From assembly GCA_016926475.1 (NCBI GenBank), contig JAFGON010000019.1:1-21731 (forward strand): 21,731 bases of DNA, written 5' to 3'. The stretch's first letter is position 1, and every line of letters starts with the position of its first letter. The DNA comes from a candidate division WOR-3 bacterium (GTDB taxonomy: Bacteria; SDB-A). The translations under genes were made by a program, and so were the position numbers. A model generated the notes under the pieces. It ran no database searches. It was given only the letters and a program-made list of their open reading frames with translations, and was not told the DNA's origin. Of this stretch, positions 1 to 8,000 are shown piece after piece.

Positions 1-983
1 CGATTGCGTACGGGAAAGAAACCTTGTCCGCCCTCGCCCTAAAACTCCCAGGATTCGACGGAATCCTTTCTTTTTTCATGTCCCCCGGCAAGGAATTTGC
101 AGACGAACTCAGCACGAGGCTTAAAGTGATAGCAGGTCTTGAAAAACCAAATCTTATGCACACCGAGGATTTTTATCTGAAAGAAAACAAGAAACTTCTC
201 GAAGAGCTTGAAAGGTCTCTTAAAACTGAAAAAAAGGATTCCATACTCGTATTATGGGGACCCCATGAGGATATTGAAACTGCGAGAGACGTAATCGAAG
301 AAAGATGTATGTTGCTCTTTGACGGAGTGCCCGGTGAGACAAGAAAAGGACTTTTGGACGGAACGACGATCTTTGAAAGGGTTTTGCCGGGACCAGATCG
401 TATGTATCCCGACACCGACTCTGCACCGATACCTATTGAAAATTCTTACATCGAAAAAATCGAAAACTCTCTCCCGATCTCCATTGAAGACAGGTTCTCC
501 CAGATGAAATCCTGGGATATCCCCGACGACGTCAATGTTTATCTGATGAAAAAAAACCTTCTGCCCGTCTTGGAAGAATTGCATACCAATTTCGAAATAG
601 ATCAAAAATTTCTTTCATGCCTATTCGGGCATTACATTAAAAACCTCGAAGGCAGATACAAAAAGAATTTTCCATACACAAAATTACCGGTCGTATTCCA
701 ATACATGAAATCTCAATCAATAGTTTTCGAAAAAATCAAAGATGTCTCAAAAATACTAATTGAGAATCCAAACATGGAGCCCGAGTCTCTTTTTTCAACG
801 GCGGGATTCGTCAAAAAAGACAAAAAAGAAATAATTGCCATGATTCCGGAGCTGAAAAAAAACTTTTCTAAAATCAGAAAATCCAAAAACGACGGCGCAG
901 AAAAAAGATGGCTCATGGGAAGATTAAAAGACCTTTCCACCGGCAACATACCCCTTAAAGAGCTTGAAGCGGAGATAGACTAA
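1..983 (+). CDS. gatE: Glu-tRNA(Gln) amidotransferase subunit E, C-terminal part (truncated by window edge)
   Basis: GatE binds misacylated Glu-tRNA(Gln), phosphorylates the glutamyl group with ATP and, with ammonia from GatD, converts it to Gln-tRNA(Gln) in the cytoplasm. The reading frame is open to base 1, so the gene starts outside the window; the TTG at 24 is only an internal codon. About 327 residues are visible of a family that usually has about 620. They cover the end of the catalytic cradle, the AspRS-like insertion domain, and the helical and tail domains that hold the tRNA. The diagnostic stretch is GVPGETRKGLLDGT followed by LPGPDRMYPDTD at about bases 324-420. The stop overlaps the gatD start by one base (TAATG), giving translational coupling. 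GatDE is classically archaeal whereas the neighbourhood is bacterial. A GatB origin is unlikely because GatB lacks this insertion and is not paired with an asparaginase-like partner. Confidence 0.93.
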   Translation, partial: IAYGKETLSALALKLPGFDGILSFFMSPGKEFADELSTRLKVIAGLEKPNLMHTEDFYLKENKKLLEELERSLKTEKKDSILVLWGPHEDIETARDVIEERCMLLFDGVPGETRKGLLDGTTIFERVLPGPDRMYPDTDSAPIPIENSYIEKIENSLPISIEDRFSQMKSWDIPDDVNVYLMKKNLLPVLEELHTNFEIDQKFLSCLFGHYIKNLEGRYKKNFPYTKLPVVFQYMKSQSIVFEKIKDVSKILIENPNMEPESLFSTAGFVKKDKKEIIAMIPELKKNFSKIRKSKNDGAEKRWLMGRLKDLSTGNIPLKELEAEID

Positions 984-2365
984 TGCTTGAAATCTACAAG
1001 GGCTACCGGGGAATTTCTCTTGATGTTTTGAAAAAATTCAACGCGCCTGTATGGACGGATGTAATCATAAAAACCAAAAGAGGCGAATTCAGAGGTATTA
1101 TCCTTCCGAGATCCGTAAACGACGACGACCGGCACATAGTCCTGAAAATACCCAACGGATACAACATCGGCATATCGGCTGACATAATAACCGAAATCGA
1201 AAACGTAGGATACAAAGAAGCCCATTACAAAATTCCCGAAAAAGAATTTTTCTTCTCCGCGAACAAACCCCAGATCAAACTTTTCGGAACCGGCGGAACC
1301 ATAGCTTCGAGACTCGACTACAGGACAGGCGCTGTCATACCTGCATTTTCACCGGGAGAACTTTACGGCGCGGTTCCGGAATTAGCAGACATCTGCAATC
1401 TCTCCACGGAAAAGCTTTTCGCCGTTTTCAGCGAGAACATGGGTCCACAGCAATACAAGACACTCGCCGTCGCTATAGGCGAAGAGATAAAAAAAGGCAC
1501 CAAGGGAATAGTCATAGGACACGGAACAGACACAATGCACCACACAGCGGCGGCTCTTTCCTTCATGATCCAAAATTCACCTATACCGATAGTCATGGTC
1601 GGATCTCAAAGATCATCCGACCGGCCGTCTTCCGATGCAGCGCTCAATTTAATACACGCCGTGAAAACAGCAGCGGAATCAGACATAGCTGAAGTAATGG
1701 TGTGCATGTTCGGTCCGACTTCCGATAAATTCGGTCTTCTGCACAGCGGAACAAGGGTCAGGAAGATGCATTCCTCGTACAGGTCAACTTTCCGCACTGT
1801 AGGCGATATACCGATAGCTATGGTCGACAGGGAAAAAATCACACCTATCAGAAAGAAATACAAAAAGAGGAGAACTGACAGAAACGTCGGAATTTTTCCT
1901 TATTTTGAAGAAAAAGTCGCTATGATCTACTACTACCCCAACATGGCTCCCGATATGATAGATTCGCTGGTCGAAAACGGCTACAGAGGAATAATAATTA
2001 TTGGAACCGGCCTTGGACACGTAAACAAACCTCTATATCCCGCTATAGAGAGGGCGGCCAAAAAGAATGTCCTGATGTTCATGACTGTCCAGACCTTATG
2101 GGGTTATACCCACATGTTCGTCTACGACACAGGCAGGGATCTTATGAGCCTTGGGGTTATACCGGCTGAGAACATGCTCCCCGAAGTTGCTTACATAAAA
2201 TTAGGCTGGGCTCTCGGGCAATCAGATGACCCTGATGAAGTCAAGAAAATCATGCTCTCTCCTGTTTGCGATGAAATCACCGAAAGAGAACCTTATAACG
2301 GATACCTCATATTCCAGGGAGGAATACCCGAGGTGGAAGATTTTCTGGGCAAGATTCATAAATAG
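983..2365 (+). CDS. gatD: Glu-tRNA(Gln) amidotransferase subunit D (asparaginase-like glutaminase)
   Basis: GatD hydrolyses an amide donor (Asn or Gln) and passes ammonia to GatE. The product has 460 residues, a normal length for GatD. An N-terminal domain of about 95 residues, absent from plain asparaginases, is followed by an asparaginase I fold. Visible active-site elements are FGTGGTIAS with nucleophile Thr106, GHGTDT with Thr182 and Asp183, and GTRVRKMHSS with Lys261, matching the Thr-Thr-Asp-Lys set of the family. The start ATG overlaps the gatE stop by one base, and the downstream folC-like gene begins 5 bases after the stop, so all three are probably one transcript. The extra N-terminal domain and the linkage to gatE separate it from ansA/ansB. 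No mutation of a key residue is visible, so the complex should be active. Confidence 0.95.
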   Translation: MLEIYKGYRGISLDVLKKFNAPVWTDVIIKTKRGEFRGIILPRSVNDDDRHIVLKIPNGYNIGISADIITEIENVGYKEAHYKIPEKEFFFSANKPQIKLFGTGGTIASRLDYRTGAVIPAFSPGELYGAVPELADICNLSTEKLFAVFSENMGPQQYKTLAVAIGEEIKKGTKGIVIGHGTDTMHHTAAALSFMIQNSPIPIVMVGSQRSSDRPSSDAALNLIHAVKTAAESDIAEVMVCMFGPTSDKFGLLHSGTRVRKMHSSYRSTFRTVGDIPIAMVDREKITPIRKKYKKRRTDRNVGIFPYFEEKVAMIYYYPNMAPDMIDSLVENGYRGIIIIGTGLGHVNKPLYPAIERAAKKNVLMFMTVQTLWGYTHMFVYDTGRDLMSLGVIPAENMLPEVAYIKLGWALGQSDDPDEVKKIMLSPVCDEITEREPYNGYLIFQGGIPEVEDFLGKIHK

Positions 2366-2370
2366 CCTAA

Positions 2371-3663
2371 ATGTCAAATTACCCCTATTACACAGACGTC
2401 GATCAGATCTATCATTGTGATTGGACTGCCCAAAAGTATCTGCGTTTTAGTCTTATGAAAGAGGTTTTGGGCGAACTCTTTCCCCAAAACCACCGTTCAA
2501 AATTCATTCAAATAGCAGGAACAAGCGGTAAAGGATCGGTGTGCCGTTTTCTCGAAGCGGCTTTTTCTGTTGAATACAAAACAGGCGCATTCGTCAATCC
2601 TCATCTTTTCGACTTCAGAGAAAGATTTTCTGTAAACGGAAAAATCGTCGATCAGAACGAAATTTTGGATATTTGGGAGAATACACTTTTGCCACTGAGC
2701 GTTAAAATGCTTTCAAAAAAACGCTTGGCATTGTCCTACAGCGAGGTCTGCGTCCTTTTTGCGCTTTTGATTTTTCAAAAACATGAAGTCGACTGGGCAT
2801 TTATGGAGACAGGTTGCGGCGGCAGATACGAAAGGCTGACCGCATTGAAAGCCGAAGCGGCCGTGATCACATCCGTTGGATACGACCATCCGCTGAGCCT
2901 CGGAGAAGAAAAATGGCAGAGAGCATGCGACAAAGCCGGAATAATCAGAACTGGAAAACCTCTTTTCACCGCTGAGCCAGACGACGAAATCGTCCGAATC
3001 TTTGCACAATTCTGCGAAAAACAAAATGCGGATTTGATTAGGTTGAAAGAAAAAAGTGTCGAAGAAGTCCGGAATTTCCATTTAGGTGAAGGTAAAAACT
3101 TCCTGATTTTCAACCAGGAACATCAAATCAAAAACGCCGCTCTCGCCCTTGAGATCTTCAGATTTTTCAAAGGCAAGGGAGACATACGCAAAGCCCTGAA
3201 AAAAATGGGAGAAGTCGTTTTTTTGGGGAGGTTTGAAGAAATTGCCCCGGGCGTTTTCATCGACATCGCTCACAATGAAGATAAAATTCATGCGCTGTTT
3301 GAACATCTCCAAAAGAATTTTTTTGAAAAAAAAATCATTTTAGTCGTAGCTCTCTCGAATCTCAGGTCTCCAGATAAGATTTTCAAAAACATCTCTTCCA
3401 TAGCCGAAAGAATAATCGTGACCCGCGCTTCATACAGTTCGGTCGAACCCGAGGATATCGCCAAATCCCTTCAACTATCGTCCGCGGTTCCTGTCGAAAT
3501 AATCGAAAATCCCAGAGAGGCTTACGAAAAGGCCGTCTCTTTGAAAACCGACAATTCCATAGTCGTGCTGACCGGCTCAAACTATATGATAGACCAAGCT
3601 ATCAACCCAGACAGACACCTGTCCCATCTCAATCTCACATACGGGTGGAGATACAAGCATTAG
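2371..3663 (+). CDS. folC: Folylpolyglutamate synthase / dihydrofolate synthase family Mur-ligase
   Basis: Members of this family add glutamate to folates, and the bifunctional ones also make dihydrofolate from dihydropteroate, using ATP. In this 430-residue protein the P-loop is GTSGKGS (residues 50-56). It is followed by NPHLFDFRERFSVNG (76-90), ETGCGGR (146-152), ITSVGYDH (166-173), the DKAGI segment whose Lys188 is normally carbamylated, GRFE (286-289) at the domain junction and DIAHN (298-302) in the C-terminal domain. These are FolC hallmarks in the right order and spacing. No strong Shine-Dalgarno precedes the ATG; the 5-base gap after gatD suggests coupled translation. It converges on the GGDEF gene with only 6 bases between stops. 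Whether it has both activities or only glutamate ligation cannot be read from sequence alone. Assignment to FolC rather than MurC/D/E rests on the motifs and length. Confidence 0.87.
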   Translation: MSNYPYYTDVDQIYHCDWTAQKYLRFSLMKEVLGELFPQNHRSKFIQIAGTSGKGSVCRFLEAAFSVEYKTGAFVNPHLFDFRERFSVNGKIVDQNEILDIWENTLLPLSVKMLSKKRLALSYSEVCVLFALLIFQKHEVDWAFMETGCGGRYERLTALKAEAAVITSVGYDHPLSLGEEKWQRACDKAGIIRTGKPLFTAEPDDEIVRIFAQFCEKQNADLIRLKEKSVEEVRNFHLGEGKNFLIFNQEHQIKNAALALEIFRFFKGKGDIRKALKKMGEVVFLGRFEEIAPGVFIDIAHNEDKIHALFEHLQKNFFEKKIILVVALSNLRSPDKIFKNISSIAERIIVTRASYSSVEPEDIAKSLQLSSAVPVEIIENPREAYEKAVSLKTDNSIVVLTGSNYMIDQAINPDRHLSHLNLTYGWRYKH

Positions 3664-3669
3664 TGGAAT

Positions 3670-5097
3670 TCAGTAATAAACATCCATACGGTTTTTGCCC
3701 TTGTACTTGGCTCTGTAAAGAGCTTTGTCTGATTGTCTGAGCAAATCGGAAAAATTTTCGCAACCCTTTTGAACTTCTGCAATGCCGATGCTGTTCGTTA
3801 TTTTTATGCTCCTCCCGTCCACTTCAATTTCCTTGTCCTGAAACTCTTTGAGTATTTTTTTGCTCAACTCGACCGCTCCCTGGAGGTCGGTTCTCGGCAA
3901 TAGGATCATGAACTCATCTCCTCCGTATCTGGCTAAAACATCGAAATTCCGGATTATTGATTTTAAAATTCTCGCGGTTTTTTTTATAATTTGGTCTCCT
4001 ACCAAGTGTCCGTAAACATCGTTGACTTTTTTAAAATCATCTATGTCAATCAACAAAAGAGAAAGAGGCTCCGAAAACCTCGTCGCTTTGAAGTATTCTT
4101 TGTCGGCTATTGTGAAAAATAACCTTCTGTTGAAAAGATCCGTCAACTCGTCAGTCATTGAAAGGTAGTGAAGCTGGCTGAATATTTTAGAATTCTCGAT
4201 CGAGATTGCCGCCTGATTCGTGATTTGCGTCAGAATTTCAACTTGTCTCTCGTCGTAATGAGATTCTTCCTCATGGTGCAGGGTCAGTAAACCGAGAACG
4301 TTTTCTCTTCTCACAATAGGCATGCAAATGGCTGATTTGAAATTCGAATTGTCGTCGTCAATTTTTATCCACCTCTTGTCTTTATCAGTGTTTTTTATCA
4401 AGGCGGCTGTTTTGTTCTGATAAACCCAACCCGCCAATCCATTTTGCATTATCTTTTCAACAACAGCGGTTTGCTTTTTTTTGGATCCGTATTCTCGTGA
4501 AAGGATTTTCTTTATGACGTTACCCCCGGAATCGGTCAAAAAAATGGTTCCGGACACAGAATCGGTGATTTTGACGGTGAGTTGCAAGATTTGCTCAATT
4601 ACGACGTCTATGTCGAGGGAAGAATTAAAAATTCCCGACGTCTCGTAGAGAAACCTCAGTTGAAGCGCGTTTTCTCGAAGTTTTTTAAACGAATCGGTTT
4701 TTGAAACAGCCTGTAAAAGCCGGGGTATCAATTCTTCAGAGACTTTTTTCTTTTCGACATAGTCGTCAGCTCCGGCCTTGAAAGCTTCTTCGATTTTCAG
4801 GTTTCTGGGGTTGGCAATGACTACCAGAGCCGGATCTGCGTGATTTTCAGAATTTTTAATAGAATCAATTATCTTTGAAATCTCCATTTCGGAAGAATAT
4901 ATTACAATGAAAGCAGAAAAATCTTCGGGTTTAATTTCAGTTCCTTCTTTTAAAAAATTTTCTGTTTCAAAAAATTCTACCCCTTCCCCGTTCAATATAC
5001 CGACGACCTTTTCGTGTACGGGGTCTTTTACTCCGCACAAAACTATCTTCAAATTTTTTGGGGAGATTCTTTTCGTTCGAACGTCTTGGCGCATCAT
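3670..5097 (-). CDS. Diguanylate cyclase with pseudo-receiver, GAF and GGDEF domains
   Basis: The protein (475 residues) probably makes cyclic di-GMP from GTP in response to a ligand or partner. Residues about 15-132 have a response-regulator fold, recognisable from AFKAGADDYVEKK near 105-117. The acidic pair after strand 1 and the phospho-acceptor Asp after strand 3 are absent (IVIYSSEM at 64-71), so it should not be phosphorylated; the Lys at 116 remains. A GAF domain spans about 160-305 and a GGDEF domain about 310-475. The catalytic signature YGGDEF is intact (391-396), and RNFD (383-386) sits five residues before it, which is a complete inhibitory I-site. No transmembrane segment is visible, so it is cytoplasmic. 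ATG at 5097 is preceded by a modest AAGG. It is monocistronic, divergent from the YacP operon and convergent with folC. Confidence 0.92.
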   Translation of the reverse strand: MMRQDVRTKRISPKNLKIVLCGVKDPVHEKVVGILNGEGVEFFETENFLKEGTEIKPEDFSAFIVIYSSEMEISKIIDSIKNSENHADPALVVIANPRNLKIEEAFKAGADDYVEKKKVSEELIPRLLQAVSKTDSFKKLRENALQLRFLYETSGIFNSSLDIDVVIEQILQLTVKITDSVSGTIFLTDSGGNVIKKILSREYGSKKKQTAVVEKIMQNGLAGWVYQNKTAALIKNTDKDKRWIKIDDDNSNFKSAICMPIVRRENVLGLLTLHHEEESHYDERQVEILTQITNQAAISIENSKIFSQLHYLSMTDELTDLFNRRLFFTIADKEYFKATRFSEPLSLLLIDIDDFKKVNDVYGHLVGDQIIKKTARILKSIIRNFDVLARYGGDEFMILLPRTDLQGAVELSKKILKEFQDKEIEVDGRSIKITNSIGIAEVQKGCENFSDLLRQSDKALYRAKYKGKNRMDVYY

Positions 5098-5123
5098 AAA
5101 AAACCTTATTTTTAGTTAATTTT

Positions 5124-5133
5124 ACTATATAAT
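5124..5133. promoter_or_regulatory. Possible divergent -10 elements between the GGDEF gene and the YacP operon
   Basis: The 71-bp gap between two divergent starts is AT-rich. It holds TATAAT on the plus strand (5128-5133) and, overlapping it, TATAGT on the minus strand (5124-5129). No convincing -35 box is seen at the right distance for either, so these are candidate -10 elements only. Confidence 0.35.
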
Positions 5134-5168
5134 TTCTCTGAATTCACCATCTTTGTATTGAACAGAAC

Positions 5169-5633
5169 GTGAAGAAAATTCTTATTATAGACGGATACAA
5201 CATCCTGGGTAGAAACCCTGACAGCCTTTTCGGAGAAGAGGAACGTGAAAATCTGATGTCCAAGGTCAGAGCTTTGACCTCCGGATCAAATTTTTATACT
5301 TTCGTTGTCTTCGACGGCAGCGGAAAAACATCATCGAGAGAAAAAAGACCGGGGGTTGAAATCATGTTTTCCAGCTCGGAAGACTCGGCGGACGAACTTA
5401 TAGTCAATTTGGTTGAAAAAAGCGCTACAGCAGGTCAAAGGGTATTTGTCGTCACAGCCGACAGGGAGCTCTCTTTTAGATGCAAAAAGTTTGGCGCTCT
5501 TGTTTTCAAAGACGCCTCTTTAGCGGTGAAAAAAAAGAAGAAACCTCTCAAGAAAGATGATAAAATCAGTCCGTCTGAAAGTGTGGATTACTGGTTGAAA
5601 CTCTTCAACAAAGGAGATGCAGATGAAGTATGA
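5169..5633 (+). CDS. YacP-like NYN-domain (PIN-fold) ribonuclease-like protein
   Basis: This 154-residue protein opens with ILIIDGYNILG (residues 4-14), the signature of the NYN/YacP family. That family includes Bacillus Rae1, a ribosome-associated mRNA endonuclease. Acidic residues expected to bind metal are present: Asp8, Asp49 in VVFDGSGK, Asp75 in SADELI and Asp98 in TADREL. A lysine-rich run at 121-129 could contact RNA. The start is a GTG; no later in-frame start keeps the first strand and Asp8. Its 3' end overlaps the following AIM24-family gene, whose Shine-Dalgarno lies inside it. RNA cleavage is inferred from the family. A role tied to the ribosome would fit many relatives, but the sequence does not prove it. 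Confidence 0.82.
   Translation: MKKILIIDGYNILGRNPDSLFGEEERENLMSKVRALTSGSNFYTFVVFDGSGKTSSREKRPGVEIMFSSSEDSADELIVNLVEKSATAGQRVFVVTADRELSFRCKKFGALVFKDASLAVKKKKKPLKKDDKISPSESVDYWLKLFNKGDADEV
5611..5616 (+). promoter_or_regulatory. Ribosome binding site that fixes the AIM24-family start
   Basis: AAGGAG directly abuts an ATG at 5617 (zero spacing, not usable) and lies 6 bases before the ATG at 5623. The later ATG is therefore the likely start. Confidence 0.75.
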
Positions 5634-6312
5634 AATTCTCTACCAGCCCAGCTATTCCGTGGCTAAAGTTTTTTTGGACAAAGACGAATCTCTGACAGGC
5701 GAAGCCGGAGCTATGGTCGCAATGACTCCGAACATAGAATTAAAATCCGAGATGGGTGGCGGAAAATCGGGTTTCGGCGGTTTTATGAAAGCCGCCGCGA
5801 GATCTTTTGTCGGAGAAAGTTTTTTTCAAGCTAAATACACAGCTCTTAATTCACCCGGAGAGATAATTCTCGCCCCTTCAGGAGTAGGCGACGTAACAGT
5901 AATTGAACTTCAAAATCAATCCTACATGGTCCAATCCGGATCTTACCTCGCCTCTTCTTCCTCTCTGATAATCGACACCAAGTTCACCGGAGGAAAAAGC
6001 TTCTTTTCCAGAGAAGGCCTTTTCATGATAAAAGTGACAGGGACAGGGACGCTTTTTGTATCGAGTTTCGGAGCGATACACCAAGTCGAAATACCTTCGG
6101 GACAAGAATACATCGTCGACAACGGGCACATTGTAGCTTTCGACGCCACGGTTCAATACAAAATCGAAAAAGCCGCCAAGGGTTTCATATCTTCCGTCAC
6201 TTCCGGCGAAGGTTTCGTGTGCAGATATCAAGGCCCCGGCAAAATTTATCTGCAGACAAGGCAAGTGGAAGGCTTGGCTAATCTGATAATACCTTACGTG
6301 CCTAAAAAATGA
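5623..6312 (+). CDS. AIM24 family protein (TIGR00266-like)
   Basis: The predicted product has 229 residues and is built almost wholly of beta strands and glycine turns. Diagnostic stretches are LTGEAGAMVAM near the N-terminus, a glycine-rich linker followed by GESFFQAKYTA, a middle GEIILAPSG segment, the YMVQSGSYLASS segment, and VDNGHIVAFD near the C-terminus. The domain is a double-psi or beta-helix-like fold whose biochemical role is unknown in bacteria. In yeast the namesake AIM24 is mitochondrial and affects inner-membrane organisation. No signal peptide is visible. The start was chosen at 5623, not the ATG six bases earlier, because of Shine-Dalgarno spacing. It overlaps the YacP-like gene by 11 bases and the YgiQ gene by 4 (ATGA), so the three are co-translated. 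Family assignment is firm; function is not. Confidence 0.85.
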   Translation: MKYEILYQPSYSVAKVFLDKDESLTGEAGAMVAMTPNIELKSEMGGGKSGFGGFMKAAARSFVGESFFQAKYTALNSPGEIILAPSGVGDVTVIELQNQSYMVQSGSYLASSSSLIIDTKFTGGKSFFSREGLFMIKVTGTGTLFVSSFGAIHQVEIPSGQEYIVDNGHIVAFDATVQYKIEKAAKGFISSVTSGEGFVCRYQGPGKIYLQTRQVEGLANLIIPYVPKK

Positions 6313-8000
6313 CGCTTCCTTCGTCGAGAGAAGAAATACTCTGGACGTATAAAACAGGTTACGATGTTCTTCTTTTGACGGGCGACGCTTACGTCGACCA
6401 CCCTTCATTCGGAGTCTCGCTTATTGCGAGACTCCTTCAGCATCATGGATACAAGACCGCCGTTTGTTCCCAGCCAACAAAAGAAACATTAAAGAAAATT
6501 CCAAAACCTGATCTTTTTGTCGGCATAACCGCCGGAAATCTCGATTCGATAGTATCTAATTACACGGGCAACAGAAAAATCAGAAATGACGACAAATTCT
6601 CTTCGTTCGGAAGAGCTTTCAGAAACGACGGCACGAAGAGAAGACCGGACAGAGCGAGCATAGTATATTCTAACTGGGCTAAAGAATTATACAAAAATAC
6701 ACCTATTGTTCTCGGGGGAGTTGAATCTTCTCTGAGAAGAATAGCCCACTACGATTATTTCAGCGACAACATAAGAAAATCGGCTATTGCCGATTCTAAA
6801 GCGGATTTTCTTGTTTTCGGAATGGGAGAGACCCAAATTCTTGAGATAGCCGAAAGGATAAGATCAAACCCTGAAAATTTTGACAAGAAGGGTATACCAG
6901 GGACATGCTACCTATCTGGCGAACCCGATGGTCTGGAAATACCGTCTTTCGAAAACGTCAAAAATGATCCAGCGGCTTTTCTCGAATCGCAGATCGCTGT
7001 CAACGCAAATTCCCATCCTGTCTTCGGAAAATTATTTTCTCAAAAACAGGATACTCGTTATGTCGTATGCAATCCGCCCGCAATGCCCGTGAAAAGCGCT
7101 TTTTTGGATCTTGTCTATTCGTTGCCTTATTCGAGAAAAGCCCATGTATCATCTCGAAGGGTTCCCGCCCTCGAAATGATAGCTAATTCAATAACTTCGC
7201 ATAGGGGTTGCGCAGGTTCCTGCTCGTTTTGTTCGATTAAACTGCATCAGGGCAAAACAATCGTCTCCAGATCCGAAGATTCCATAATGGATGAATTGGA
7301 TGCTATAACACGAAATACTTTCTTCAGAGGGCACATAACCGACGTTGGAGGCCCCAGCGCAGACATGTACGGGAGCTATTGCTCTAAATATCCCGGGAGC
7401 GGATGCAACGACAGAGAGTGCCTCTATCCTGAAAAGTGCCCATTTTTCAAGACAGATCCCGAAAAGTATTTAGGTCTTCTCGACAAAATCGCGAGCAAGA
7501 AAGGCGTCAAGAAAGTCAGTATCGGTTCCGGCCTAAGACTCGACATAATTCTCGTGGAAGACAGATATCTCAAAAAAATATTACTGAACTACACAAGCGG
7601 AATTCTAAAGGTCGCACCGGAGCACATAAGCCCGTCGGTGTTGAAGATCATCAGGAAATACAGACCTCATGAATTTGAAGATTTTATACAAAGGTTCCAC
7701 GCGGCAAAAGTTCAATTCGGTTCGAGAGTCGAGTTGGTGCCGTATTTTATACTTTCACACCCGGGGGAAGGAGAAAAAGAGTTTAAAGAGCTGCTCGATT
7801 TCTCAAAAAAAAGCATGGTATTCAACAGGTCTTTTCAGGATTTCACCCCAACGCCAATGACAGACTCTACCTGCGCCTACTACACCGGCATTGACGCAGC
7901 GACAAAAAAACCGGTTGTAACAGTTAAAAAACAGAGCGAGAGGCACAAAAGAAGAGAAAATTTCGCTGGTGGAGCTTCAAAGAAATTTCATGAACTCTAA
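6309..8000 (+). CDS. ygiQ: YgiQ family radical SAM protein
   Basis: This 563-residue protein is a two-part radical SAM enzyme. An N-terminal domain (about 1-280) carries the conserved LLLTGDAYVDHPSFG and VLGGVESSLRRIAHYDYFSD signatures. The radical SAM core follows with HRGCAGSCSFCSIKLHQG, whose Cys301, Cys305 and Cys308 should bind the catalytic [4Fe-4S] cluster. A second cysteine group (358, 366, 371, 377) follows GGPSADMYG and is typical of the family; it may hold another metal centre. The C-terminal APEHIS and DFTPTPMTDSTCAYYTG segments also match. The substrate is not known for this family. It is shorter than the roughly 740-residue Escherichia coli protein, mainly at the C-terminus. Its start overlaps the AIM24-family stop (ATGA), and its 3' end overlaps the convergent VOC gene by 24 bases. 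Confidence 0.92.
   Translation: MTLPSSREEILWTYKTGYDVLLLTGDAYVDHPSFGVSLIARLLQHHGYKTAVCSQPTKETLKKIPKPDLFVGITAGNLDSIVSNYTGNRKIRNDDKFSSFGRAFRNDGTKRRPDRASIVYSNWAKELYKNTPIVLGGVESSLRRIAHYDYFSDNIRKSAIADSKADFLVFGMGETQILEIAERIRSNPENFDKKGIPGTCYLSGEPDGLEIPSFENVKNDPAAFLESQIAVNANSHPVFGKLFSQKQDTRYVVCNPPAMPVKSAFLDLVYSLPYSRKAHVSSRRVPALEMIANSITSHRGCAGSCSFCSIKLHQGKTIVSRSEDSIMDELDAITRNTFFRGHITDVGGPSADMYGSYCSKYPGSGCNDRECLYPEKCPFFKTDPEKYLGLLDKIASKKGVKKVSIGSGLRLDIILVEDRYLKKILLNYTSGILKVAPEHISPSVLKIIRKYRPHEFEDFIQRFHAAKVQFGSRVELVPYFILSHPGEGEKEFKELLDFSKKSMVFNRSFQDFTPTPMTDSTCAYYTGIDAATKKPVVTVKKQSERHKRRENFAGGASKKFHEL

Follow-up and report, generated by a model that had tools for sequence, protein, structure and literature searches.

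The window, that is, the whole stretch of 21,731 nucleotides analyzed, is the entire contig C19 of a WOR-3 genome of 2.15 Mb in 106 contigs, which is rated 100% complete and 0.27% contaminated. It opens with gatE and gatD, followed by folC, and the rest of gatE is found on contig C98 of the same genome:

3..983, plus strand: C-terminal part of gatE (325-326 codons; NCBIfam); the window begins within the gene
contig C98:1-996, minus strand: N-terminal part of gatE (332 codons)
983..2365, plus strand: complete gatD (460 aa; NCBIfam and Pfam), with a TAATG one-base overlap with gatE
2371..3663, plus strand: folC (folylpolyglutamate/dihydrofolate synthase), a phylum-conserved neighbour that served as misjoin control and is not a part of GatDE
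3664..3669, no strand: junction between folC and a GGDEF gene, where G053, of the same phylum, has a transporter, glnS and smr, and where the window genome and G051, of the same genus, have none of them

The window GatD reached 503.8 bits against the NCBIfam GatD equivalog (cut-off 310) and shows the Pfam domains GatD_N, Asparaginase and Asparaginase_C, with TGGT, HGTDT and RKMH motifs that align with those of P. abyssi and M. thermautotrophicus GatD. Base 983 is common to the TAA of gatE and the ATG of gatD. For the gatE half of the window, GatE is the top NCBIfam family, matched along profile positions 305-603 of 630, and the score stays under the whole-protein cut-off solely because the contig begins inside the gene. 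The last five bases of the C98 part (cgatt) are the first five of the window (C98 ends ...acacgatt and the window opens cgattgcg), and the joined gatE is in frame and encodes 657 aa, with SHT-I-AYGK across the join and SHT-R-AYGK in the uninterrupted gatE of locus L019. With an E of 3.8e-84 the joined protein matches the M. thermautotrophicus GatE (2D6F), and it also matches that of P. abyssi (1ZQ1). Both the GatD and the GatE calls are far beyond chance. An earlier note on this DNA had described an intact gatD with its catalytic residues, coupled by one base to the C-terminal half of gatE and surrounded by bacterial genes, and this description stands, since the neighbour family calls are bacterial. 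An RNA family search of the window found no match.

The asparaginase motifs are near-invariant across the aligned bacterial GatD sequences, and GatE keeps GLEIHQQL, RKQ..DGS..GFQRT, LEED, DRLG.PL.E and RMYP.TD. An AlphaFold2 model (pLDDT 83.4) was made for the sister GatE of L019, whose GatD is 90% identical to that of the window. Its best structural matches were the GatE proteins of 2D6F (Z 29.8) and 1ZQ1 (Z 27.4), with GatB ranking behind. Residues 309-439 of the model resemble the insertion domain of AspRS (Z about 11), which sets GatE apart from GatB, and the tail (601-658) resembles YqeY, with a Z of 5.5 that is weak by itself; the sister model therefore shows the whole GatE architecture of GatB-like cradle, AspRS-like insertion and tail. 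Comparison of gatD with L019 gave a dN of 0.066 and a synonymous distance that was not computable (-1) and was read as saturation, and the two together suggest strong purifying selection. According to motifs and model, gatE-gatD are predicted to encode a working bacterial glutamyl-tRNA(Gln) amidotransferase.

L019 belongs to the closest relative, a WOR-3 MAG, and has in common with the window the order of seven genes, gatE-gatD-folC-GGDEF-NYN-TIGR00266-ygiQ; gatE-gatD-folC is also kept in L008, which is of the same family per genome classification. Because L019 and L008 keep this order, the stretch 2365-3700 (folC) that had been suspected of chimerism is conserved in independent assemblies, and the proviso that this is not a chimeric assembly holds. 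A chimeric contig or archaeal contamination would agree with the description of GatDE as archaea-only (PMC8762117, PMC9499178), but synteny in independent MAGs refutes it for practical purposes. Its probability is negligible, as nucleotide composition is also uniform along the window, archaeal GatD rows are well apart from the bacterial ones, and the clade includes Zixibacteria chromosome records and the non-MAG Clostridium tagluense and Calditrichales MX18-03. The L008 record (LKUE01000395.1) is titled Desulfuromonas sp. SDB, an NCBI name that looks wrong in view of its family placement and its gatE-gatD-folC.

A scan of contigs from one genome per species gave at least 571 confirmed relatives, among whose lower ranks there may be asparaginases or archaea. 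All of the best 80 are bacterial, with 72-90% identity: they belong to Zixibacteria, Cloacimonadota, Bacteroidota, Aminicenantes, Ignavibacteria, Calditrichota, Acidobacteria, Lentisphaerae, a Bacteriovoracaceae MAG and the named C. tagluense. The GatD tree unites the bacteria in a single group, to the exclusion of the two archaeal references; these are the entire archaeal sampling and lie on very long branches, so that an archaeal origin of the clade is not placed. The bacterial sequences cluster mostly by phylum (two changes in Bacteroidota, two in Cloacimonadota and three in Zixibacteria), and some transfers within the clade are likely, for example in C. tagluense, which lies beside Calditrichales. 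The idea that this lineage had individually kept or acquired the archaeal system finds no support in a GatD that sits in so broad a bacterial clade, and neither does a placement of the window genes in an archaeon. By sequence, GatDE is a known enzyme in a domain from which it was said to be absent, and it forms a bacterial clade there. gatE adjoins gatD in nearly all relatives; no conserved functional partner was found beside gatDE in them, the other neighbours being lineage-local, and no plasmid-borne relatives were found. Downstream of the intact gatD of an Aminicenantes locus (L015:7933-8052), a fragment resembles the last 40 GatD residues (57% identity) and is possibly a duplication remnant.

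Gene content was compared in 50 GatDE genomes chosen by query similarity and without GatDE-less controls, for which no correlation is claimed. GlnRS scored over the curated cut-off in 47 of the 50, including two of the four of this phylum, and GatB was found in eight; 40 carry GlnRS and GatDE without GatB. These 47 genomes contradict the expectation that a bacterium with GatDE has no GlnRS. A Bacteroidales MAG (locus L061, genome G038) shows GatDE and GatB without GlnRS, and two amidotransferases could serve its tRNA(Gln). The genome of locus L038 (G022, L148) has no GlnRS over the cut-off and no GatB, with Lys replacing Arg at the R358 position of its GluRS, and is a second candidate for a GatDE-only bacterium.

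In the window genome, the GatB_N profile search gave one match, GatE itself, which scores 85.9 bits against the TIGR00133 cut-off of 314.8, and no GatB was found. It shows one class Ic Glu/Gln synthetase, gltX_bact (511 bits), and the GlnRS profile search at E<=10 found nothing except this GluRS, not even a fragment. AsnRS (516 bits), bacterial AspRS and LysRS are present, as well as tRNA-Gln genes with both UUG and CUG anticodons and a separate stand-alone asparaginase (C71, 320 aa). The lack of GlnRS and the presence of AsnRS are as the earlier note had predicted, and there is neither a GatB nor a GlnRS beside which GatDE would be redundant; these absence calls rest on a MAG whose rated completeness of 100% is not absolute. 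A tRNA-Sec gene (UCA) is also predicted (G000:C90:11495-11586; L126:95-188), which suggests a selenocysteine system in this genome.

The history of glnS was followed in four genomes of the GTDB phylum: the window genome (G000), G051 and G052, which belong to one genus, and G053. All four carry GatD, and two carry GlnRS, which is complete in G053 and partial in G051 (3' 360 aa, at a contig end); in G000 and G052 it was not seen. The gene adjoins smr in both carriers, being located between folC and the GGDEF gene in G053 and followed by smr, EamA and murJ in G051, and the two proteins show 60% identity, in line with vertical descent. G000 (C30) and G052 (C64) show an unbroken mnmE-smr-EamA-murJ, with mnmE-smr gaps of about 110 and 160 bp, respectively, where glnS would sit: its place next to smr is cleanly empty in both genomes. 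No clear branching order emerged among G000, G051 and G052, so that glnS may have been lost once or twice. No cell can do without GluRS, and in G052, also rated 100% complete, no GluRS match was found, so MAGs of this set do miss genes and a single missing gene proves little.

The sole GluRS of the window genome has Arg at the position of T. thermophilus Arg358, the discriminating signature, as do its GlnRS-bearing relatives. Of the prediction that GluRS charges tRNA(Gln), the single GluRS is borne out, and a non-discriminating signature was not seen at R358, where this Arg is retained. In T. thermophilus, mutation at the R358 position relaxed discrimination, but H. pylori GluRS1 was unaffected by it, and Arg358 is not a general predictor (PMC3927822). 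Both tRNA(Gln) of the window genome show U1-A72, G2-C71, G3-C70, G10 and G73. The first four belong to the set conserved in GlnRS genomes and G73 does not (PMC3927822); G73 is the bacterial discriminator base, and the archaeal GatDE substrates have A1-U72 and A73 (PMC9499178). The archaeal A1-U72 recognition feature is therefore missing here, although it is a trait of the substrate and not decisive for GatDE membership. The retained GlnRS-type bases fit either a recent loss of GlnRS or a missed GlnRS. G37 of tRNA(Gln) was discarded as a mark of GlnRS loss, since T. thermophilus has it together with a functional GlnRS (PMC3927822). In archaea, GluRS gains affinity for tRNA(Gln) by forming a complex with GatDE (PMC9499178), and by analogy a complex of this kind could apply in the window species.

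In the proposed route, GluRS would load Glu onto tRNA(Gln), the asparaginase-type site of GatD would free ammonia from Gln or Asn, and GatE, with ATP, would activate the tRNA-bound Glu and then amidate it to Gln-tRNA(Gln). The ancestral GlnRS gene would have been lost in the window species, which has no GatCAB as judged by GatB. One GluRS, the absence of GatB and GlnRS and the empty glnS site make GatDE probably the sole route, and we give a probability of about 0.72 to a working GatDE being the only source of Gln-tRNA(Gln) after GlnRS loss, with its activity, the use of tRNA(Gln) by GluRS and its essentiality as predicted components of this reading. The other bacteria of the clade have mostly kept GlnRS, and the simplest idea is that there GatDE may work in parallel or in repair, rescuing Glu-tRNA(Gln). 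On balance we also favour, with somewhat less assurance, the wider picture of GatDE as an established bacterial family, a repair or backup enzyme beside GlnRS in many phyla, which took over fully in this genus once GlnRS was lost, leaving neither GlnRS nor GatCAB.

It is also conceivable that GlnRS is present in an assembly or binning gap or has been relocated, and that GatDE is then a redundant backup or repair system for mischarged Glu-tRNA(Gln). GlnRS in 47 of 50 GatDE genomes and in G051 of the same genus would agree with this, as would the retained R358 and GlnRS identity bases of tRNA(Gln) and the example of G052, in which an essential gene was missed. Nevertheless, two genomes have an unbroken contig on which mnmE lies beside smr, the ancestral neighbour of glnS, no fragment was retrieved at E<=10 and completeness is rated 100%, and we regard a hidden GlnRS as unlikely. 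Another substrate or role, with Gln-tRNA(Gln) synthesis abandoned, is very improbable for bacterial GatDE: its persistence beside GlnRS in most carriers and a tRNA(Gln) without the archaeal A1-U72 contact might point to it, but both subunits keep their catalytic motifs, together with the tRNA-binding insertion and tail domains, and no conserved new partner gene lies nearby.

GatDE as probable sole route has its closest counterpart in archaeal GatDE (P. abyssi 1ZQ1; M. thermautotrophicus 2D6F with tRNA-Gln), which has the same subunits, motifs, AspRS-like insertion of GatE and tail. Bacterial GatDE differs in its host, its separate clade, its bacterial-type GluRS, its U1-A72/G73 tRNA(Gln) and the usual company of GlnRS. 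Bacterial GatCAB catalyzes the same overall reaction and its GatB has a fold common to GatE, but the window genome has no GatB and its ammonia would come from the asparaginase-type GatD instead of the amidase GatA. Type I/II L-asparaginases are homologous to the GatD catalytic domain, whereas GatD_N and the coupling to gatE are the GatD system's own. The direct route yields the same product by GlnRS, which was not found in the window genome.

GatDE is described as restricted to archaea in reviews of 2021-2022 (PMC8762117; PMC9499178; PMC8007984, 2021), and none of 366 bacterial genomes sorted in five classes was without both GlnRS and GatCAB (PMC3927822). No report of a bacterial GatDE was found in the literature, from which subscription journals were largely outside coverage, and prior notice is possible. 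Reviews use GatDE as an archaeal signature, on which ideas about LUCA and about co-evolution of GatDE and archaeal tRNA(Gln) are based; a bacterial clade that acts, or at least persists, with a U1-A72 tRNA(Gln) weakens this tie. A lineage without GlnRS and with GatDE would be a natural complementation experiment, and C. tagluense is the most tractable organism in which to ask why GatDE is retained alongside GlnRS in dozens of bacteria. In strain A121, whose genome has GlnRS and no GatB, gatE-gatD is located at positions 4040-7380 of locus L053.
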